Positions 11,660-64,000 of a stretch of DNA of 64,000 nt are shown here, one piece after another. The stretch is from contig JACRCO010000053.1 in NCBI GenBank assembly GCA_016218975.1, positions 203,523-267,522 on the forward strand. The letters are read 5' to 3'. How positions within the stretch are numbered: the first letter of the stretch is position 1; each line of letters starts with the position of its first letter. The position numbers were made by a program, and so were the translations under genes. Source of the stretch: Deltaproteobacteria bacterium. GTDB lineage: Bacteria; Desulfobacterota; Deferrimicrobia; Deferrimicrobiales; Deferrimicrobiaceae. The notes under the pieces are model-generated. The model was given only the letters and a program-made list of their open reading frames with translations, did not search any database and was not told where the DNA came from.

Positions 11660-11830
11660 TTACTTGAGGCGGCCGCGGATCTCACGCACGGCGTCCCTTA
11701 CGATCTTCTCGGCCACCTTGTCCGATTCCACACGATACTTGCCGTTGGACACGGCGGTTCGAATTTCCTGAATTTTCCGGGAATCGCTGCCCTTCCCGGG
11801 TTCGTTGCCTTTCCTTCCAGACGGTTTCAA
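11660..11830 (-). CDS. flgM: Short FlgM-like anti-sigma-28 factor
   Basis: A 56-residue minus-strand frame, too small to stand out by length. Its C-terminal 38 residues match the sigma-binding part of FlgM (KIQEIRTAVSNGKYRVESDKVAEKI, quoted here in two parts: KIQEIRTAVSNG and KYRVESDKVAEKI). FlgM holds FliA inactive until it is removed. The only in-frame initiator after the preceding stop is a TTG at 11828-11830 with a distant GGAG, so the protein is shorter than the usual 90-100 residues and lacks most of the disordered, exported N-terminus. A sigma-28-like promoter lies about 40 bases upstream, and a FliA-type sigma factor gene lies 1.7 kb away. Confidence 0.7.
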   Translation of the reverse strand: MKPSGRKGNEPGKGSDSRKIQEIRTAVSNGKYRVESDKVAEKIVRDAVREIRGRLK

Positions 11831-11872
11831 GCGGTGCCGGTCTCCGGATCTGAATTCTCCCTCTGCAAATGC

Positions 11873-11900
11873 CTATCGACCGATTCACTGTAAAACTTTA
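11873..11900 (-). promoter_or_regulatory. Sigma-28-like promoter of the FlgM-like gene
   Basis: The minus strand reads TAAAGTTT (11893-11900, a perfect -35 octamer), 12 bases, then GTCGATAG (11873-11880, six of eight matches to GCCGATAA). The spacer is one base longer than the usual 11. It would start transcription about 35 bases before the TTG codon. Confidence 0.5.
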
Positions 11901-11925: not shown

Positions 11926-13323
11926 ATGCCGAAATCGCTACTGATAGCTGACGACGAAGAATTGACGCTTTCCCTCCTTAAGGAGGTGTTTTCGTCGACG
12001 GAAATCCGTCTCCATCTCGCCAAATCGGGCAAGGAGGCGATTTCGATCCTCAATCAATCCGACATCGACGTTGTGCTGACCGACTTCATGATGCCGGGGG
12101 TGGACGGTCTCGGCGTTCTCACACACGCGAAAAAGGTGCATCCGAAGTGCGAGGTCATTATGATGACCGCCTTCGGGACCGTCGAGAACGCGGTGCAGGC
12201 GATGAAAATGGGCGCCTTCCACTACATCACGAAGCCGTTCAAGGTCATGGATGTGACCAGCCTCGTCGGCCGCGCGCTCGAGCTTACGAGCATCCGGAAG
12301 GAAAACATTCATCTCAAGACGCAGGCCATACACCACCACTCCTTCGACAACATCATAGGCGTCAGCGGGCAGATACGGCAGGTGCTCGATCTCGTGCGTA
12401 AAGTGGCCGATTCGGACTCCACGGTTCTCGTCCTGGGGGAAAGCGGGACGGGGAAGGAGCTGATCGCGCGCGCGATCCACTACAACAGCAAGCGGGCGGA
12501 CCGGATGCTGGTGGCGGTCAATTGCTCCGCGATACCTGCCGAACTTCTGGAGAGCGAACTTTTCGGTCACGTGAAGGGCGCATACACGGGAGCCCACGTA
12601 GAGAGAAGCGGAAGGTTCGAGATGGCCCACCGCGGGACGATTTTCCTCGACGAGATCGGCGAGATGAGCCCTCCGCTCCAGGCCAAGCTATTGCGCGTTC
12701 TTCAGGAGCAGTCGTTCATCCCCGTGGGCGGGACCAAGACCGTGAACGTGGACGTCCGCGTCATCGCCGCGACGAATCGCGAACTCGAGCGCGAAATCAT
12801 CGCGGGCCGCTTCCGGCAGGACCTCTTCTTCCGGCTAAACGTGATCCCCATCCACATCCCTCCCCTGCGCGAGCGCATCGACGACATACCCGTTCTCGTC
12901 GGCCATTTTCTCGAAAAATGGAACCGCAAGATGGGCCGCCAGGCGAAAGGGTTCCGCCCCGATGCGACGGAGCGGCTGATGCGCTATCCCTGGCCGGGGA
13001 ACGTCCGGGAGCTCGAGAACATCGTGGAACGGCTCGTGGTCCTGAAATACGACGGTTGGTTCGAAACGGCGGACCTTCCTCCGGCGATGCAGGCGCGGGG
13101 ACGCGAGCCGGCTTCAGTTTTCGACGGGTTCGATCTCGGGTGCGGGAGTATAAACCTAAGGGAGGCGACGGGCACGTTCCAGCACCGCCTGATCGAGAAC
13201 GCGTTGACGATCACCAAGGGGAACAAGAACAAGGCTGCGGCCCTCCTGGGGCTCAAGCGGACCACTCTCCTCGAAATGCTCAAACGGAGGAAGCAGGACT
13301 GTCAAGAATTGTCAGATGCCTGA
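11926..13323 (+). CDS. NtrC-family sigma-54-dependent response regulator
   Basis: A 465-residue activator with three domains. The receiver spans about 1-120 (acidic pocket DDEE, phospho-acceptor Asp53 in LTDFMMPG, lysine in ITKPF). The AAA+ sigma-54 activation domain spans about 140-370 (Walker A GESGTGKE, the sigma-54-contact loop as GAYTGA, Walker B IFLDEIGEM, R-finger region FRQDLFFRLNVIPI). A Fis-type helix-turn-helix lies near 425-455 (NKNKAAALLGLKRTTLLEML). I chose the ATG at 11926 because it begins the receiver fold. No Shine-Dalgarno is visible. A sigma-54 promoter and a FliA-type gene follow within 170 bases, so this is probably their activator. Its cognate kinase is not obvious. Confidence 0.92.
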   Translation: MPKSLLIADDEELTLSLLKEVFSSTEIRLHLAKSGKEAISILNQSDIDVVLTDFMMPGVDGLGVLTHAKKVHPKCEVIMMTAFGTVENAVQAMKMGAFHYITKPFKVMDVTSLVGRALELTSIRKENIHLKTQAIHHHSFDNIIGVSGQIRQVLDLVRKVADSDSTVLVLGESGTGKELIARAIHYNSKRADRMLVAVNCSAIPAELLESELFGHVKGAYTGAHVERSGRFEMAHRGTIFLDEIGEMSPPLQAKLLRVLQEQSFIPVGGTKTVNVDVRVIAATNRELEREIIAGRFRQDLFFRLNVIPIHIPPLRERIDDIPVLVGHFLEKWNRKMGRQAKGFRPDATERLMRYPWPGNVRELENIVERLVVLKYDGWFETADLPPAMQARGREPASVFDGFDLGCGSINLREATGTFQHRLIENALTITKGNKNKAAALLGLKRTTLLEMLKRRKQDCQELSDA

Positions 13324-13420: not shown

Positions 13421-13436
13421 TGGCATGCCTGTTGCT
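13421..13436 (+). promoter_or_regulatory. Sigma-54 promoter before the FliA-type gene
   Basis: TGGCAT-GCCTG-TTGCT matches the -24/-12 consensus TGGCAC-N5-TTGCW in all but one position, with GG and GC in exact register. Predicted transcription starts near 13447, about 40 bases before the ATG at 13488. The intergenic AT-rich stretch just upstream would hold the activator sites. Confidence 0.75.
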
Positions 13437-13487
13437 GCATCCTTTCTCCAGCAATCCCACGACGCAAGGAGAAAGGGAGAAGGCAAC

Positions 13488-14249
13488 ATGGCCCCCAGAG
13501 AAGCAGCGATGGCCTGCGAAACATACGATGCCCCTCCCCCCGTGGCGCCGGATCGGAATGCGCTCGTTGATGAATTCATGACCACGATCAAATACCACGC
13601 CGCGCGCATAAAGATGCGCGTCCCTCCGAATATCGACGTGGATGATCTCGTCAGTTCTGGGGTCGTCGGATTGCTGGACGCCGTCGACAGGTTCGATCCT
13701 TCACGCGGAATCAAGTTCAAGACCTATGCGGAATTCCGGATCCGCGGGACCATGCTCGACTATCTCCGGGAAATGGATTGGTTCCCGCGCTCCATCCGGC
13801 AGTCGTCCACGAAGATGCGCAACGCCTACGCGCGACTGGAAGGCATGCTGGGCCGGCCTCCCGAAGAAGCGGAGGTCGCAGAAGAACTGGAAATCCCTCT
13901 GGATGAGTTCCGTAAACGCCTGGCGATGCTCTCGGGCCTGTCCGTCCTTTCGCATGACGAAGGCATGGAAGATGGCGAAGGCTCCGGCATACAGCGCTTC
14001 CTGTGGGAAGCCGCCAAGGACGAGGCGCGAGAGGAAGAGCTGTTGCGGGACCTCAAGGAAGTACTGGCGAAGTCGATCGACACCCTCCCGGAAAGGGAGA
14101 AACAGCTTATCGCCCTCTACTATTACGAAGACCTCACGATGCGCGAGATAGGCGAAATCTTCAATCTCGGGGAGCCGAGGATCTGCCAGTTGCACGCACA
14201 GGCGGTTTTGAGGCTCCGCGGAAGGCTCCACTCCCAGCTGGAGCGCTAA
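13488..14249 (+). CDS. fliA: FliA/WhiG-type RNA polymerase sigma factor
   Basis: A 253-residue group 3 sigma factor. Region 2 is clear (VDDLVSSGVVGLLDAVDRFD, then FKTYAEFRIRGTMLDYLREMDW). The middle matches region 3 (RPPEEAEVAEELEI), and region 4 has the LTMREIGEIFNLGEPRICQLHAQAV helix-turn-helix, given here as LTMREIGEIFNLGEP and RICQLHAQAV. The ATG at 13488 has GGGAG upstream and sits correctly after the sigma-54 promoter. An upstream in-frame ATG at 13425 lies inside the promoter itself and is rejected. Flagellar FliA is the best-known member, but no flagellar structural genes are in the window. Confidence 0.88.
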   Translation: MAPREAAMACETYDAPPPVAPDRNALVDEFMTTIKYHAARIKMRVPPNIDVDDLVSSGVVGLLDAVDRFDPSRGIKFKTYAEFRIRGTMLDYLREMDWFPRSIRQSSTKMRNAYARLEGMLGRPPEEAEVAEELEIPLDEFRKRLAMLSGLSVLSHDEGMEDGEGSGIQRFLWEAAKDEAREEELLRDLKEVLAKSIDTLPEREKQLIALYYYEDLTMREIGEIFNLGEPRICQLHAQAVLRLRGRLHSQLER

Positions 14250-50685: not shown

Positions 50686-50817
50686 TCCGTCCCTGTCCGA
50701 CGAAATATTTATATCAGCGAAACCGATAAAGATGTCGGTTTTCGATCCGATATTATAAAGTAGAGACGGATCCCACCATGTATAAAACGCCATCGATATC
50801 CCACATCGGAGGCGAAC

Positions 50818-51975
50818 ATGCGCTACCGATCGGCAAGCAGCATCAGCACCGATGCCTACCTGGCGGGGCTCGAAATCGGTGAATCCCTCAAGGAAATATC
50901 CCCTGAGACCGTAATTTTTTTCGCCTCCATCAGCTACGAGAGGAATTTCGCGGAGCTGTTCGATGGAATGCGGGACGGCCTCGGCTCCGAGGATGCCGTC
51001 CTCTTCGGCGGAACGGGGGACGGATTCTACGAGACCTCGCAAACCGCGAATTACGGCGCATCCGCGCTGGGCATCCACAGCGGGGGGAAAATCAGATGGT
51101 CGGCCGCCTCGGCGGTCGGGGTCGAGGAGGATTCCTTCCTTGCCGCCAGGTCGTGCGCACTCGCCGCGGCAGCCGGGACAGGGAGTCCGCCCACCTTCGC
51201 ATTCGTCCTTGCGGACGGCACGAAGGCCGACGGCAGCGGGATCGTCGCAGGCGTCGAGAGCGTGATCGGAGCCCCTTTCTTCGGCGGGCTGACGGGAGAC
51301 GACCGCAAGTTCAAGCGAAGCCGGGTTCTGCTCAACGGAGCCGAACTCGAAAACGCCGTGGCCATACTGGCTGCATCCGGGGAAATCCCGTTCGCCGTGA
51401 ACGCGGCGAGCGGCTGGACGCCGATCGGCGCGCCGGGAAACATAGAAGACGGCGAGAGCGGCACGATCCGCCGCATAAACGGGATGACCGCCCAGGCTTT
51501 CATGAAGGAGCAGCTCGGAAAACCGCTGGGCGAAGCCGACCTCGGAATCGTCCCGCTGGCCGCTTACAGGCAGGCCGACGACGAATATTTTTTCTTGAGA
51601 ACGCCATCGCATCTCGATCGGGAATCCGGCGCCATCGCCACGTTCGGCAGCATCGAGGCCGGTACCGCCGTCCGGGTCTGCACGGCGACCCGCCCGGATG
51701 TTCTCGACGGGGTCCTGCGGGCCGCGGAAGGCGTGGAGGCGCGGGGGTTCACTCCCGCCGCCGCGCTGGTCGTAAGCTGCGCGGGGCGAAAGTGGCTGCT
51801 GAGCGATTCGGGAAAGGAAGAAGTCGACCTTGTCCTTTCGGCCTTCGGGGGCAAGATCCCGATGGCCGGTTTTCCCTCGTTCGGGGAAATCAGCCCGTTC
51901 CGGAAGCCGGGAGGTGCGTACACGCAAACGTTTTTCCACAACGTCACGTTCGTGGTCTGCCTCCTCGGAGAGTGA
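50818..51975 (+). CDS. FIST domain sensory protein
   Basis: A 385-residue cytoplasmic protein with FIST-N (about 20-215, including PTFAFVLADGTKADG and PFFGGLTGDDRKFKRSRVLLNG, in part) and FIST-C (about 225-365, GIVPLAAYRQADDEYFFLRTP, in part; VSCAGRKWLL; AGFPSFGEISPF). FIST modules are thought to bind small molecules such as amino acids and feed signalling proteins. The ATG has GGAGG. The stop is one base before the kinase GTG, so the two proteins are made together and likely form a sensor pair. The promoter region has a perfect hairpin AAACCGA...TCGGTTT near 50725. Confidence 0.87.
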   Translation: MRYRSASSISTDAYLAGLEIGESLKEISPETVIFFASISYERNFAELFDGMRDGLGSEDAVLFGGTGDGFYETSQTANYGASALGIHSGGKIRWSAASAVGVEEDSFLAARSCALAAAAGTGSPPTFAFVLADGTKADGSGIVAGVESVIGAPFFGGLTGDDRKFKRSRVLLNGAELENAVAILAASGEIPFAVNAASGWTPIGAPGNIEDGESGTIRRINGMTAQAFMKEQLGKPLGEADLGIVPLAAYRQADDEYFFLRTPSHLDRESGAIATFGSIEAGTAVRVCTATRPDVLDGVLRAAEGVEARGFTPAAALVVSCAGRKWLLSDSGKEEVDLVLSAFGGKIPMAGFPSFGEISPFRKPGGAYTQTFFHNVTFVVCLLGE

Positions 51976-51976
51976 A

Positions 51977-53590
51977 GTGAAACACCCGCTTCTATCTCTT
52001 GCCGAAAACCCCCCACGGGGATTCGTGCACAAACCGGACCTGTCCCGGCGCGACGTACGGTCGAAGACGTTCGCCCTTTTCACCGGATCCGTCGGCGAAG
52101 CCGAACTTCGCCTCCGGGAATTGACGACACGTCCGAACGGCATCTTAGTGACGTGCTCCGGCGATTTCCTGTGGGAACGGCGTGAGGGCTCCCTCTTCCA
52201 CATGGGCGTGCCCGAAGCATTGCGGGAATATATCCACCTGATCCTGCCCGTGTGCCTCGATCTTCTCGAGACGATCCATCGCCAGGCGGACAACGAGAAG
52301 AGACTTTACTTCGAACTGACGCGGGCCGTCGACGATCTCCGGATGTTGAGCGGCGATTTCAGCATGTCCCGGAAGAGTCTTCTCGAGGAAATTTCCGAGC
52401 GCAGGGCCGCGGAAGCCGCCCTGCGCGAATCCAGGGCGCAGCTTCTCCACGCACAGAAGATGGAGGCCGTCGGAACCCTCGCCGGGGGGATCGCGCACGA
52501 CTTCAACAATCTACTCCAGGCGATCACCGGGTTCACCTCGCTGGCCCTTCTCGAAATTCCCGAAGGAAACGACAGCCGCCACTTGATCCGGAAAATCGGG
52601 ATGGCGTCCGACCGGGCGTCCGAGCTGGTGAAGCGCCTCCTGACATTCAGCAGGATGGAGCCTCCGGAAAAGAGGCCTCTCGATCTGAACCGGGAAATTT
52701 CCCACACCGTGAGCCTTCTGGAGCGCGTCATCCCGAAGATGATCGGCATCGAAACCCGCCTGTATCCGAACCTTGTCCCGATCGAAGGCGATCCGACTCA
52801 GATCGAACAGGTAGTGATGAACCTCGGGGCGAACGCCAGGGACGCGATGCCGGAAGGCGGATGCCTGTTATTCGAAACGGAAATCACGGAGGTGACGGCC
52901 GGTGCAGTGCCGGAAACCGCGGATATGCCCCCGGGGGATTACGTATTGCTGCGCGTCAGCGACACAGGCGTCGGGATGAGCCCGGAAACCGTGAATCGCA
53001 TTTTCGACCCCTTTTTCACGACGAAGGAGATCGGATCGGGAACGGGGCTCGGCCTCTCCACCGTCTACGGCATCGTACGGGGTCACGGAGGCTGGATCCG
53101 TTGCAATAGCTCCCCGGGTTCGGGCACGAGTTTCGAAATCTTCCTTCCGCCTTTCCGGTCGACTGATTTGATTACCGCCTTGGAGATCTCCCGGGGAATG
53201 GAGGTAGATCCTTCGGGCGGAACGGAATCGATCCTCATCGTCGACGATGAGTACATGGTAAGGGACGTCGCGAAAATCGTCCTCGAGGGACGCGGTTACA
53301 CGGTCCGTTGCGCCAGGAGCGGTGAAAACGCGCTGGAGATGTTCCTCGCCGACGGGTGGAGCCCGGATCTGGTACTTCTCGACCTGGGCATGCCGGGCAT
53401 GGGGGGCCGCAAGTGCCTCGCGGAAATACTCAAGCGGAAACCTGACACAAAGGTTCTGGTAGCCAGCGGCTATTCGACGGATCACCAGGCAGCCGGGATC
53501 GTGGACGCCGGCGCCCGCGGGTTCATCGGCAAGCCTTATAAAACCATCGAGCTGGTCCGTAAAGTGAGGGACATTCTCGACGGTCCCTGA
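51977..53590 (+). CDS. Soluble hybrid histidine kinase with receiver
   Basis: A 537-residue cytoplasmic kinase. An unclassified N-terminal region (about 1-135) and a short coiled coil precede the H-box [11 protein letters not shown], a HATPase domain ([33 protein letters not shown]) and a C-terminal receiver ([10 protein letters not shown], phospho-Asp in VLLDLGMPG, lysine in FIGKPY). The GTG start has GGAG six bases before it and lies immediately after the FIST stop. No membrane helix is present, so FIST is the probable input. A separate output regulator is not seen. Confidence 0.9.
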
Positions 53591-59146: not shown

Positions 59147-59926
59147 GTGAAACAGGATATCCGTTCCTACATACTGGGGCTCGGAGCCGACGATGCCGGG
59201 TTCGCCGCCGCCGCCGATTACGACAGCCCGAGGTCCCCCCGGCTCGAGACGATCTTCCCGGGGATCCGGTCCCTTGTCCTGCTCGCTTACCGCGAGCTCG
59301 AGAGCTGCGCAAGCCCGGACCCGTACATCGCACAGAACGGGCGATACGACCTTATGGAATTCTCGCGCGGGTGCAACTACCGTCTGGCCAGGTTTCTCGA
59401 AAGGGAGTACGGCGCCCGCTGCATGACGGTGCCGGTGTCGTATCCGATGGCGATGACGCGGGAAACGAAGGGCACGGCAGGACAGGTGTCGCTGCGCCAT
59501 GCCGCGGTGGTAGCAGGTCTGGGGGCGATCGGCCGCCACAACCTCGTCGTTCATCCGGTTTTCGGAACCAGGGTCATATTTTCCGCGGTCCTCACCGACC
59601 TGGATCTTCCATCCGACAGGCGGTTGGATTCGACGCCCTGCACCGATTGCGGCATCTGCGTGGAGAATTGCCCCGGCCGGGCGCTCGACGTTGCGGGCCG
59701 GACGGACGTGATGAAATGCATCAGGAATTCCCAGCCCTACGGATTATCCGGCGCGATCGGTTTCTGGGGCCGTCACGCAGAGGCTTCGGAAGATGAGCGA
59801 AAGACGATGTTCAGGGACGATTTCTTCTGGAAGATGTACCAGGCAGGTCACATCGGACCGCAGTATTTCTGTTTCAAGTGCCTGAGCTCCTGTCCCGTGG
59901 GGCGACCTTCACTTGATATGCCGTGA
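59147..59926 (+). CDS. QueG-like 4Fe-4S reductase family protein
   Basis: About 259 residues. A cobalamin-reductase-like N-terminal part (LGLGADDAGFAAAADYD, RSLVLLAYRELE) leads to GAIGRHNLVVHPVFGTRVIFSAVLTD (in parts) and ferredoxin cysteines CTDCGICVENCP and CFKCLSSCP. The pattern resembles epoxyqueuosine reductase and related small 4Fe-4S proteins, but it is shorter than QueG and probably not the tRNA enzyme. The GTG at 59147 is preceded by a GGAGGG site. It follows a strong promoter. Confidence 0.75.
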   Translation: MKQDIRSYILGLGADDAGFAAAADYDSPRSPRLETIFPGIRSLVLLAYRELESCASPDPYIAQNGRYDLMEFSRGCNYRLARFLEREYGARCMTVPVSYPMAMTRETKGTAGQVSLRHAAVVAGLGAIGRHNLVVHPVFGTRVIFSAVLTDLDLPSDRRLDSTPCTDCGICVENCPGRALDVAGRTDVMKCIRNSQPYGLSGAIGFWGRHAEASEDERKTMFRDDFFWKMYQAGHIGPQYFCFKCLSSCPVGRPSLDMP

Positions 59927-60199
59927 TAAGCACCATACCGGCTCGCCGTTCAGCAGGATCTTCCGCGTCTCGTTCCCGCAGGCGTTGGTGACCGCGATGG
60001 ACGGTTTTTCTTCAACCCTGTAACATATGCCGGATTCGATAAGATCGTTCTGTTTCTTTTCGTCGCCGGAATCAAGAGCCGACTTGTAGGATTTGATGCC
60101 GTCCTTCGTTTTGCAGACGACGGCACCCGATGCAAGCGTTTGCGTCCAGGCGACATTAGCCGACAATGCGACAAGGATCGCCACGTATACGATTCGCAA
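59909..60199 (-). CDS. Small exported protein of unknown function
   Basis: About 96 residues with a signal peptide (RIVYVAILVALSANVAWTQTL) and three cysteines in the mature part (VCKTKDG, GICYRVEE, NACGNET, plus a C-terminal WCLSRHIK). The start is uncertain: a TTG at 60199 places the signal peptide at the front. The frame opens at 60250. Its 3' end overlaps the ferredoxin-protein gene by 18 bases. Confidence 0.5.
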   Translation of the reverse strand: MRIVYVAILVALSANVAWTQTLASGAVVCKTKDGIKSYKSALDSGDEKKQNDLIESGICYRVEEKPSIAVTNACGNETRKILLNGEPVWCLSRHIK

Positions 60200-60714
60200 G
60201 TTGTTACCCGCTCCACGTTTTAAATATCTGCAACCAGTCAAAACAATCAACGGTTACAAACATAATCAGGCATTCTAAAACGGCGATCGACAAAATACAA
60301 TAATCTATTACATAATAATCGGCATCAATACTGGACAAACCGGCACCGCCGCCGATATGCCCAACCTTCTGTCAGTACTCTTTACGGTTTGAAAGGGATC
60401 TTGCTTAAATGAGAATTGCAACCAAGATTCCCCACCCCATTAAACATTAATCAACAGCAACATCCAGACCAAATCATGAATATGTCACAAAGCCTCATAA
60501 ACATTAGCAAATAAATCATAAATGCACATGGCTTCTGTTAGCAAGGGGAGAATATGGTAATTCTTTTCTTTTTTTTGTGAACCCGCCTTCACTTTTTATG
60601 CATGTCGGTAACAGCGTTTGGATATTCCCGCTTAAGGCATTCAAGTTAACTCCGATAAGTATCACGGCAACTTTTGCAAAGCCTAATTGGCTTCAATGAA
60701 AGGAGACCGTAGAG
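60200..60714. other. AT-rich 515-bp intergenic region
   Basis: Much richer in A and T than the genes around it, with no credible open frame. It contains a sigma-28-like promoter (60632-60658), a small hairpin AAGCC-TAATT-GGCTT just before the Shine-Dalgarno of the next gene, and a T-rich run at 60560-60590. Confidence 0.6.
60632..60658 (+). promoter_or_regulatory. Sigma-28-like promoter of the binding protein/chemoreceptor operon
   Basis: TTAA (60632-60635), exactly 15 bases, then TCCGATAA (60651-60658, seven of eight matches to GCCGATAA). The -35 matches TAAA in three of four positions. The start point would lie about 50 bases before the ATG. Confidence 0.5.
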
Positions 60715-61974
60715 ATGAGCAAAAAAACGTTGTTTTTATCGGTTCTGTTCATTTCCATCGCAACCCTTGTTTCCGCAGCCGATGTGGTCAAGATCGGGCT
60801 CACGGCTCCTCTCGACATCAAGCCGCTTGAAGAGAGGGATCCCTACTGGAAACAGGGTCTGGACCAGAAACGCGCCGCGGATATGGCCCTGGAGGAAATC
60901 AATGCGGCCGGCGGGATCAACGGCAAAAAGGTGGAGCTTGTCGTGGTCGACACCCCGAGCAAGCCCTCCGAATCCAAGGTCATCCTCGAAAAGATGTACA
61001 ACGACGGAGCCATCGCGGCTCTCGGCGGAAGTGCGTCCTCCGTCGCGATCGCCAACGGGAAGGTTGCGAAAAAAGCGAAAAAGCTCTTCTTCGGAACGCT
61101 GACCTACTCGACGGAAACTACCGGTGAGGAAGCGCACAAGTACATCTTCAGGGAGTGCTACGACAGCGAAATGGCGGCAAGGGTTCTCGCGAACTATATG
61201 AACAAGAATTTCAAAAACAAGAAATATTTCTACATCACGGCCGATTACTCGTGGGGTTACACGACGGAAGATTCCTTCCGGAAACAAACCGGCACGACGG
61301 ACAAGGACGCGCACCGCGGCGTGCTCACCAAGCTGGGAACCAAGGACTTCACGCAGCCATTGAACGCCGCAAAGGAATCCGGCGCGCAGGTGCTGGTGCT
61401 GGTCCAGTTCGGAAGGGACATGGAAAATTCGGTAAAAAAGGCCTACGAGATGGGCCTCAAGAATTCCATGCAGATCATCGTTCCCAACCTGACCGAAGAC
61501 ATGGCGGAAGGCGGCGGGGCGGAAGCGATGGAGGGCGTCATCGGCGCGACTCCGTGGATATACAAGGAAGCGATGAAATACGAGAAGGGGAAGAAGTTTG
61601 TTGAGACATTCGAAAAGAAATACCAGCGCTACCCGACGACGTCGGCCGCTTCCGCCTACGTGATCCTGTGGCAGTACAAGGAGGCCGTGGAACGGGCGAA
61701 GTCGTTCGATACCGGAGCGATCATCAAGGCGCTGGAAGGGCACAAGTACGTCGGGCTCAAGGATGAGCAGCAGTGGAGGGATTGGGACCACCAGTCCGTA
61801 CAGACCGTGTACGCCGTCAAATGCAAGCCCGCCTCGGATGTGAAAGCCAGCAAGTACGGCCTCGACTTCTACGAAGTGATCGCCACGATGAACGGTGGGG
61901 AAGCGGCAATAAACAAGGACGAATGGGTTGCGGCACGTGCGAAAGTCGGGGCGCCCGCATCCCTCGAAGATTAG
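60715..61974 (+). CDS. Branched-chain-amino-acid-type substrate-binding protein
   Basis: A 419-residue periplasmic binding protein of the LivK/peripla_BP_6 type with a cleavable signal peptide (LFLSVLFISIATLVSAAD). It has the two-lobe pattern: ADMALEEINAAGGINGKKVELVVVD (in parts), the LGGSASSVAIANGKVAKKAKK hinge-side segment, YITADYSWGYTTEDSF and the C-terminal ITATMNGG-like end. No permease or ATPase genes follow; the next gene is a chemoreceptor 15 bases away. It is therefore probably a ligand-presenting protein for chemotaxis. Confidence 0.9.
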   Translation: MSKKTLFLSVLFISIATLVSAADVVKIGLTAPLDIKPLEERDPYWKQGLDQKRAADMALEEINAAGGINGKKVELVVVDTPSKPSESKVILEKMYNDGAIAALGGSASSVAIANGKVAKKAKKLFFGTLTYSTETTGEEAHKYIFRECYDSEMAARVLANYMNKNFKNKKYFYITADYSWGYTTEDSFRKQTGTTDKDAHRGVLTKLGTKDFTQPLNAAKESGAQVLVLVQFGRDMENSVKKAYEMGLKNSMQIIVPNLTEDMAEGGGAEAMEGVIGATPWIYKEAMKYEKGKKFVETFEKKYQRYPTTSAASAYVILWQYKEAVERAKSFDTGAIIKALEGHKYVGLKDEQQWRDWDHQSVQTVYAVKCKPASDVKASKYGLDFYEVIATMNGGEAAINKDEWVAARAKVGAPASLED

Positions 61975-61989
61975 ACGGAGACCTGTGAT

Positions 61990-64000
61990 ATGACGATCAA
62001 AAGCAAACTCCTTCTCAACACGGCGATCGTCCTGGTCAGCATGATCGCCGCGGTCGGGGCGGCGGTCGTCGGTATCCGATCGATAAAAGGCAATATCAAC
62101 CAGCTGACCGAAAAGACGACGCCGTACCAGGTAAAGGCTCTCCGTCATCTCCAGTTGCTTCAAGGGCACGCGGCGAACCTCATTGCCCTGGCCTCTTCCT
62201 CGACACCGGAAGAAGCCGGAAAGCAGGCGGCTCAAGCCAATGATTCGCTGAAGCAATCCCTCGATGCGGCGGACGCCCTGGCCAGGATGAAGGACGAGGA
62301 GTACGCCGGCAAAAAGGCCATCTCGGAATTCACGGCGTCCATCTCGGAAGGTGCGCAGCGGAAAACCGCGGCACAGAAGGATGTCGCCGCCGCCTCGGCT
62401 TCGATCAAGGCGAGGATACAGGCGACGACCTCGAAAATGCGCCAGCTCGACGAATCCGTGAGGAAACTTCAGGGGCAAAGCTCGACGGCGATGGTCGGCT
62501 CGATCGGCGGCCTGATAACGGCCAACCGCCAGACCCACAGCTTCATGCTTTCGCAGGAAGGGATCGGAAAGCTCCAGATATTGATCGGTGAAATCGTCGC
62601 ATCGAAGGACAAACGATCGGTGGGCGTCCGCCGGGATGCGTTCGATGAGACCGTCCGGAAAATCGGCGAAGCGCTGAAATCGACGAACAACGCCGACAAG
62701 TCCGTCGCCGACATCATGAAACCTCTTCATGCGATCAACGAAAAAATGAAAAACCTGTCTTCCCGCCAGATCAAGCGCATCAACGACGAAGACGAGGGCA
62801 TGCGGAACGAGATCGATAATTTCGCCGGCGACATCAAGAAAGAGCTCACGTACATCGTTCCGACGGTGGAGAAGGAAGTGGCCCTCGCCTCCAAGTCGAT
62901 GAAGAGCAATACCCAGAGCATGGAAACCGGGATCAATGCCTTCTCCGCTACCAACCAGATCCTCACGCACGCCTCCAGTCTCACCGTGCTCGCCACTTCC
63001 ATCGAATCCCAGATCAACCGGAGCCTGAACGAGAAGAACCTGAAGGATTTCAACACGGTCTCCGGCGGCGTGGAAAGCATGTTCGCCCAGGCCTTCGACC
63101 ACGGAAAGAAGCTGAACGCCCTTCTCGCGAAGGAAGGCGGGGGCGGGAACGAAGCGAAGCTCCTCGCGGAAGCCTCCGGAGCGCTTTCGGCGGTCCGCGG
63201 CGATTACGCCAAAATTTCCGACAAGATGCGCTCACTGATCAAGGTGACGAACGACCTCGACGGCCTCAACGATCGTATGCGCGGCATGGTTTCGGAAGAG
63301 ATCCAGAAGCGGATGAAAGACGTGTCGAGCGCCGGCACGCTCCAGGAAGAGGCCGTGAACTCCGTAAACTCCGCATCGAGGACGACATTGACGACCATCG
63401 TCGCCGTAGGCGCCCTGGCGATCGTCGTATCGCTGCTCCTGGGGTTGTGGATGGCGGGGTCTATCGGCCGCGGATTGAAAACGATCGTGGCGAAGATCAA
63501 CGAGCTTTCCGGAGACAACGCAGACCTGACGAACCGGCTGGCCGTCGGGCACGACGAGATCGGCGAAATCAGCGGCGGCGTAAACACCCTGATGGACAAG
63601 CTTCACAGCGTCATCGCAGGCATGCGCGAAAAGACACAGACCATCACAGTATCGATCGGCCAGCTCACATCCATATCCGAAGCGTTCGCAAGGAATGCCG
63701 ACAACCTGTCCGGCAAGTCCATCTCACTCGCATCCGCCGCGACCGAAATGGTCCAGACCGCCGTCGATGTCGCCAAAAACGCCGAAGCCACAGCCCATGC
63801 CACCGAAGAAACCAGGCGTGTCGCAACCGACGGCGGGAAAGAGATCGACAGGTCGCTCACGCAGGTCAAAGGCCTTTACGGCGAGATCGAGTCGATATCG
63901 AAAACGATCGACGACCTCGGATGCAGTTCCGCGAAAATCGGCGAAGTCACGGGCGTCATCCGGGGAATCGCGGAACAGACAAACCTGCTCGCGCTGAACG
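61990..64000 (+). CDS. Methyl-accepting chemotaxis protein, cut by the window end
   Basis: An open frame from an ATG with GGAG nine bases upstream to the last base, 670 codons, no stop. Helix 1 (about 7-32) and helix 2 (about 463-487) enclose a very long periplasmic region of about 430 residues that is almost entirely helical. A HAMP domain and the signalling coiled coil follow (SSAKIGEVTGVIRGIAEQTN, in part, with LLALN at the edge). The receptor tip and C-terminal methylation sites lie outside the window. The long helical input domain and upstream binding protein suggest indirect ligand sensing. Confidence 0.92.
   Translation, partial: MTIKSKLLLNTAIVLVSMIAAVGAAVVGIRSIKGNINQLTEKTTPYQVKALRHLQLLQGHAANLIALASSSTPEEAGKQAAQANDSLKQSLDAADALARMKDEEYAGKKAISEFTASISEGAQRKTAAQKDVAAASASIKARIQATTSKMRQLDESVRKLQGQSSTAMVGSIGGLITANRQTHSFMLSQEGIGKLQILIGEIVASKDKRSVGVRRDAFDETVRKIGEALKSTNNADKSVADIMKPLHAINEKMKNLSSRQIKRINDEDEGMRNEIDNFAGDIKKELTYIVPTVEKEVALASKSMKSNTQSMETGINAFSATNQILTHASSLTVLATSIESQINRSLNEKNLKDFNTVSGGVESMFAQAFDHGKKLNALLAKEGGGGNEAKLLAEASGALSAVRGDYAKISDKMRSLIKVTNDLDGLNDRMRGMVSEEIQKRMKDVSSAGTLQEEAVNSVNSASRTTLTTIVAVGALAIVVSLLLGLWMAGSIGRGLKTIVAKINELSGDNADLTNRLAVGHDEIGEISGGVNTLMDKLHSVIAGMREKTQTITVSIGQLTSISEAFARNADNLSGKSISLASAATEMVQTAVDVAKNAEATAHATEETRRVATDGGKEIDRSLTQVKGLYGEIESISKTIDDLGCSSAKIGEVTGVIRGIAEQTNLLALN

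Follow-up and report, generated by a model that had tools for sequence, protein, structure and literature searches.

A sigma-28 promoter probably precedes a binding-protein/chemoreceptor operon in a genome that also carries a parallel flgM2/fliA2 module

At its far end, the window (the whole stretch of 64,000 nt analyzed here, C53:203523-267522 of a 2.95-Mb draft genome in 100 contigs, 97.6% complete) carries a gene for a substrate-binding protein followed by a chemoreceptor gene, and near 13 kb it encodes a FliA-type sigma factor. Is the operon transcribed from a sigma-28 promoter, and which sigma factor would read it? The first-pass annotation had proposed FliA control, citing a -10 element that matches at seven of eight positions and an exact 15-base spacing, and had linked the chemoreceptor with the sigma cascade near 13 kb.

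Results

A sigma-28-like site upstream of the operon

The first gene of the operon (60715-61974, + strand) encodes a Peripla_BP_6 periplasmic substrate-binding protein of 419 aa. The second, which starts 15 nt downstream of the binding-protein stop codon (61990-64000, + strand, with its end at C53:267986 beyond the window), encodes a methyl-accepting chemotaxis protein of 824 aa with a helical periplasmic domain, HAMP and MCPsignal, the latter two matched above their cut-offs. The receptor thus belongs to the chemotaxis apparatus of a genome with flagellar genes, which also holds flagellin, CheA-type and MotA-type genes.

The predicted sigma-28 promoter lies at 60632-60658 on the + strand and comprises the -35 element TTAAGGCA (60632-60639), an 11-nt spacer and the -10 element TCCGATAA (60651-60658). 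The letters of this segment read TTAA-GGCATTCAAGTTAAC-TCCGATAA or, in octamer form, TTAAGGCA-ttcaagttaac-TCCGATAA, with exactly 15 nt separating the -35 tetramer from the -10 octamer, so both features cited in the first-pass annotation were recovered on re-reading. Compared with the E. coli sigma-28 consensus, TAAAGTTT-n11-GCCGATAA as given in PMC2859248, the -10 element matches at 7 of 8 positions, the -35 tetramer at 3 of 4 (TAAA), and the -35 octamer at only 4 of 8, with the 11-nt spacer exact. The TTAAGG of the -35 element is identical to that in the che promoter of the same genome. The site ends 56 nt upstream of the binding-protein ATG (60715), and the predicted 5' leader contains an inverted repeat, AAGCC-TAATT-GGCTT (60679-60693, + strand), a possible operator, between the -10 element and the ribosome-binding site; folding of 60665-60730 yielded -13.4 kcal/mol, a single value without a shuffle control.

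The site exceeds chance under the motif of its own lineage

We scanned the window and the whole genome with the E. coli consensus, allowing up to 2-3 mismatches. With at most 2 mismatches, the window contained 6 sites compared with 2.4 +/- 1.6 in shuffled sequences (4 of 100 shuffles reached 6), and the genome contained 135 matches compared with 143 for the reversed pattern. By the E. coli consensus alone, the 60632 site is within chance, and this consensus was dropped as a promoter finder, the 2-3-mismatch scans being no better than the control. The missing genome-wide enrichment fits a reading in which the vegetative sigma factor transcribes the operon and the sigma-28 likeness is accidental. 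Sigma-70-like matches in the AT-rich DNA upstream (4 in 59800-62100, compared with 1.7 +/- 1.6 expected) make such a promoter conceivable.

The promoters of the lineage itself gave a different result. A single 27-mer matrix blurred the 11- and 12-nt spacings, and we therefore built a two-block matrix on flgM and flagellin upstream regions from this genome and its relatives, using 26 of 30 flgM loci and 28 of 30 flagellin loci (L208 and L210 left out), of which 45 of 54 regions passed the cut. In a corrected version (44 of 52 regions), L186 and L195, which were mis-cut at contig ends and one of which was among the 45, were removed; the shuffle and reversed controls and the leave-out, flgM2, homologue and chemoreceptor scores given below come from matrices that include one or both of them. 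Such position-matrix scoring was the check proposed in the first-pass annotation, and it ranked the 60632 site third in the window at 18.8, after 11900 (minus strand, 22.1) and 50727 (20.3). These were the sole sites above 15, with the next at 14.8; the corrected matrix returned the same three at 22.2, 20.4 and 18.7 and again 14.8 for the next. The site held rank 3 under all four training sets, including one without its own genome, and kept that rank by a thinner margin (15.9 versus 15.3 for the next) when the whole family was left out of training.

Matches of this strength were rare in the controls. The reversed control over 242 kb yielded 0 matches of at least 18 and 6 of at least 14.5; this set counts 4.5 kb twice (in the window and in L046), and its match list is enriched by choice, L052, L055 and L057 having been taken for their pattern matches. 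Any match of at least 18 appeared in 11 of 200 window shuffles and, on either strand, in 24 of 5000 shuffles of 60251-60714, and 3 of 2000 column-permuted matrices reached the score of the 60632 site. When the 300 bp upstream were shuffled, 0 of 5000 sequences reached 18.7 on the + strand, a result that, set against the sigma-70-like matches, led us to reject a vegetative promoter as the sole driver. The exact pattern TWAA-N16-CCGATAA, with 7 occurrences genome-wide (2.95 Mb) and 0 in the reversed control, likewise argues against the vegetative reading. By the lineage's own motif, then, the 60632 site is beyond chance. The first-pass annotation had named numerous equally good matches in coding DNA as evidence against its promoter; the E. 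coli consensus does give such matches, whereas the lineage-specific motif does not. The matrix had a single match within coding DNA, at 20.1 (C72:77123, equivalent to L057:7124, in an open reading frame), which is probably spurious.

Motility and chemotaxis genes share the motif

The other six TWAA-N16-CCGATAA sites precede the che operon (C29:4788, with a HEAT-repeat gene first and cheA later by gene order), flgM (C29:22238), flagellin (C29:40321), a chemoreceptor (C29:60635), a GGDEF gene (C57:8608, L018), and an operon whose first gene encodes a TonB receptor and whose later genes encode an ABC_sub_bind protein and a HAMP- and PAS-containing hybrid kinase (C36:25187 on, L055:5188-10768). 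Each of the six chemoreceptors identified in this genome had an upstream sigma-28 site, with scores of 16.2-26.0, compared with at most 11.0 for reversed and at most 9.0 for opposite-strand controls. The linked sites scored 17.7 (che operon), 20.1 (cheW), 16.2 (C29 receptor), 26.0 (C89 receptor), 20.2 (C57 operon) and 18.8 (window operon); for the che-operon and cheW entries, operon continuity is judged by gene order, and for C89 the start codon is our choice. The C57 entry is another operon in which a chemoreceptor accompanies a Peripla_BP_6 protein (C57:22947-26666, L053:3947-7666).

The site recurs at related operons

We examined 20 homologues of the binding protein, chosen from matches in 47 genomes of which many weaker ones were left out. 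An upstream site of at least 18 was present in 4 of the 20 (G000, G018, G034 and G013). In G018 (25.4) and G034 (20.8), the binding-protein gene behind the site has a window-receptor homologue downstream of it. In G013 (27.5), the contig ends inside the gene, before any receptor, and the fragment may be a paralogue because it is 47% identical to the binding protein over 123 aa. The SKS1 operon, with a binding protein 69% identical and a receptor downstream, had no good site (best score 6.3), so that three of the four operons with the binding-protein gene directly before the receptor gene have one; the receptors of G018, G034 and SKS1 were recognized by similarity to the window receptor, not by Pfam. 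A binding protein 69% identical to that of the window is carried by a Nitrospirae MAG, and on this basis we assign the genome to the phylum Nitrospirota. The remaining 15 of the 20 homologues scored at most 8.5 upstream (G254, at 0.3, was scanned over the 210 bp available). G042 and G079 carry a receptor homologue upstream of the binding protein, and neither gene has a site before it. A Pfam scan of downstream genes at 10 of these 15 loci detected MCPsignal at none and HAMP at 2; these two, G111 and G127, are not clean negatives since HAMP-bearing sensory proteins lie downstream, with an output domain not seen in the Pfam scan.

Sites at two of three related operons and at all six of the genome's own chemoreceptors weigh further against transcription by the vegetative sigma factor, which we now regard as improbable. 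Thus, the 60632 site is very probably the sigma-28 promoter of the binding-protein/chemoreceptor operon, with the flagellar FliA as its most probable reader. The computed evidence consists of the site itself, the small number of such sites genome-wide, the genes that share them (flgM, flagellin, che and the six chemoreceptors identified) and such sites before the related operons of G018 and G034 and before the contig-cut homologue of G013.

The flagellar FliA is the more likely reader

Two FliA/WhiG-family factors in the genome score above the curated cut-off, FliA2 (C53:217085, window 13425-14249) and FliA (C29:4075), and the genome likewise holds two FlgM. The C29 factor (C29:4024-4764, L050) sits in a flagellar/chemotaxis cluster. 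In a tree of 44 rows, it grouped with four g9 genomes and G034 (100/100), and FliA2 grouped with other rows of the family (100/98); horizontal transfer may have brought in the flagellar cluster, given that its FliA groups with that of G034, which belongs to another family, and not with the family's other FliA.

The sites themselves point to the flagellar FliA. Across the five genomes that hold both factors, every flgM or flagellin site compared (9 of 9) carries TAAAGG and an 11-nt spacer, and every flgM2 site (5 of 5) carries TAAAGTTT and a 12-nt spacer. With TTAAGG and an 11-nt spacer, the 60632 site favors the flagellar-FliA type by 13.2 bits, a value based on only 9 and 13 training sites, from which the flgM2 sites of G006 and G024 had been omitted. 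At the other chemoreceptor sites, four of five barely separate the two factors (-0.5 to +4.8 bits), and the che operon stands at +13.8 bits. The C29 FliA is therefore the more likely reader, its genomic setting pointing away from the 13-kb factor and the TTAAGG of the -35 element resembling the flgM, flagellin and che promoters rather than the flgM2 promoter at 11900; some cross-recognition of sites by both factors is likely.

A role for FliA2, alone or together with the flagellar FliA, would place the receptor in a cascade of sigma-54, FliA2 and FlgM2. Both factors are FliA/WhiG-family members above the cut-off, the -10 core CGATA is common to their putative sites, and the sole FliA-type factor detected in G018, whose operon has a site, is FliA2-like. 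The flgM2 sites, with TAAAGTTT and 12-nt spacers, differ from the window site in both respects, and the binding-protein gene is absent (E <= 1e-40) in the genus mates G001-G003, two of which are only 61-75% complete; these three keep FliA2 and gave no flagellin match. On balance, we consider reading by FliA2 possible but rather unlikely. The FliA control proposed in the first-pass annotation thus has good support from the genome-wide context and the related operons. The proposed tie to the 13-kb sigma factor lacks such support: the C29 FliA is the likelier reader, the -35 element is unlike the flgM2 promoter, and, as described below, relatives without a flagellin match retain the 13-kb module.

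Control of the operon by sigma-54 directly would agree with the NtrC-type activator encoded in the window. Upstream of the operon, all GG-N10-GC matches of at least 7 scored positions face the wrong direction, the best being 9/12 on the minus strand; we rejected this possibility and regard it as very improbable.

With the C29 FliA as the most probable partner of RNA polymerase at the 60632 site, we infer the following course. Upon its release by FlgM, the flagellar anti-sigma factor, FliA-polymerase would read the site and start a transcript at about 60665, roughly 50 nt before the binding-protein ATG, and both genes, for the secreted substrate-binding protein and the chemoreceptor, would be carried on this one transcript. 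Such FlgM-gated transcription would mean that the receptor is made alongside the chemotaxis machinery, like class-3 flagellar genes. The chemoreceptor most likely senses the neighboring binding protein, which may bind the receptor and present its ligand to the helical domain, as TorT does to TorS, to which the structural resemblance is weak.

The partner of TorS is the periplasmic binding protein TorT, as PDB titles also record. We modeled the periplasmic domain of the window receptor from its single sequence (mean pLDDT 75), and Foldseek returned McpZ as the sole match with E <= 0.001. Among the top rows of a second structure comparison were TorS, McpS, McpZ and PilJ, at Z about 14, and TTYH, unrelated helical proteins, score as high, so this structural likeness carries no weight. 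The receptor shares with TorT-TorS and with McpZ/McpS-type sensors (PDB 3o1h/3o1i/3o1j, 8f7n, 2yfa) a long all-helical periplasmic domain, a lead only, given that the Z score is near the level of unrelated helical bundles.

A conserved flgM2/activator/fliA2 module

The sigma factor near 13 kb belongs to a module in which flgM2, on the minus strand, is followed by an NtrC-type activator gene and then by fliA2. The flgM2 gene (11660-11830, minus strand) encodes a short FlgM of 56 aa from the mechanical start, which scores 34.7 bits against Pfam FlgM (cut-off 25) and 33.6 against NCBIfam FlgM_jcvi (cut-off 40.75). It is not a full-length FlgM: only profile positions 25-54 of 55 are covered, and the N-terminal part is missing. 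Its predicted sigma-28 promoter (11873-11900, minus strand; TAAAGTTT-N12-GTCGATAG) is the top sigma-28 match of the window. The sigma-54-dependent response regulator lies at 11926-13323 on the + strand, its start probably being near 11926 in a mechanical ORF that begins at 11869. A predicted sigma-54 promoter, TGGCATGCCTGTTGCT (13421-13436, + strand), matches at 11 of 12 scored positions and precedes fliA2 (13425-14249, + strand), which lies outside the flagellar cluster and whose real start is probably near 13488, after this promoter.

Both promoters are conserved. All 15 flgM2 loci examined have an upstream sigma-28 site, scoring at least 20.7, and all 15 fliA2 loci examined have an upstream sigma-54 promoter matching at 10 or more of 12 scored positions, compared with at most 8 for reversed and at most 9 for opposite-strand controls; the two sets of 15 differ, G024 contributing flgM2 only and G017 fliA2 only. 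A flagellin search of 23 family relatives left 14 without a match, flagella being judged absent by flagellin alone and several genomes being incomplete. Among these 14, a FliA-type factor above the cut-off was found in 13, of which ten were typed (G019, G021 and G023 left out), all as FliA2-type, and a FlgM match was found in 12, G001 having none.

Candidate targets of the module can be named from their upstream sites. A conserved GGDEF gene (71-77% identical) lies behind a matching sigma-28 site in G001, G003 and the genome studied here, which makes the C57:8608 GGDEF gene a candidate FliA2 target. In G008, G015 and G021, such sites precede genes whose products appear related by eye, that of G015 being a histidine kinase whose PilS-like match is weak (23.2 bits, cut-off 27), and in G009, the site precedes a gene with a product that reads, by eye, as prepilin-like. 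The flgM2/activator/fliA2 module thus seems to be flagellum-independent and conserved in the family. The chances appear about even that it forms a complete flagellum-independent cascade, in which the activator and sigma-54 would turn on fliA2, and FliA2 in turn flgM2 and the GGDEF, kinase and prepilin-like genes, beside a separately acquired flagellar FliA/FlgM pair, with the chemoreceptor sites possibly shared.

Relation to known systems

Sigma-28 promoters before chemoreceptors are already known, and in the promoters described for E. coli aer and trg in PMC2859248, -35 and -10 octamers at 11-nt spacing precede the receptor gene, as here. Unlike those, the window operon starts with a substrate-binding protein gene, with the receptor in tandem, and the -35 element of the lineage is more variable (TWAAGG), with a spacer that can be 12 nt. 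Retention of FliA and FlgM without a flagellum is likewise known, from the account of non-flagellated Legionella oakridgensis in the review PMC5655016: fliA and flgM are kept, and flgM is sigma-28-dependent, features shared with the window module. The window module differs in having a sigma-54 activator gene between flgM2 and fliA2 and a sigma-54 promoter before fliA2, and in encoding a short FlgM2 that coexists with a second, flagellar FliA/FlgM pair. A literature search for FliA in Nitrospirota, or for such a module in that phylum, judged by titles and the beginnings of abstracts, found none among the papers listed.

The operon itself is therefore ordinary, and the novelty lies in the parallel flgM2/fliA2 module, a side result that outweighs the operon finding in importance. 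The operon work provides a working sigma-28 motif for Nitrospirota and, for a genome that has no genetics, a candidate regulon; in two of its operons, genes for a substrate-binding protein and a chemoreceptor stand together under control of the flagellar type. Because relatives without a flagellin match conserve a module that runs from sigma-54 to sigma-28/FlgM, the roles of sigma-28 and FlgM without a flagellum become testable, as does the relief of a short FlgM without export.

A second strong site in the window

The second-ranking site of the window (50727-50753, + strand; TAAAGATG-N11-TCCGATAT) lies 64 nt before a gene for a FIST-domain protein (50818-51975, + strand), which is followed on the same strand by a gene for a hybrid histidine kinase (mechanical ORF 51830-53590).
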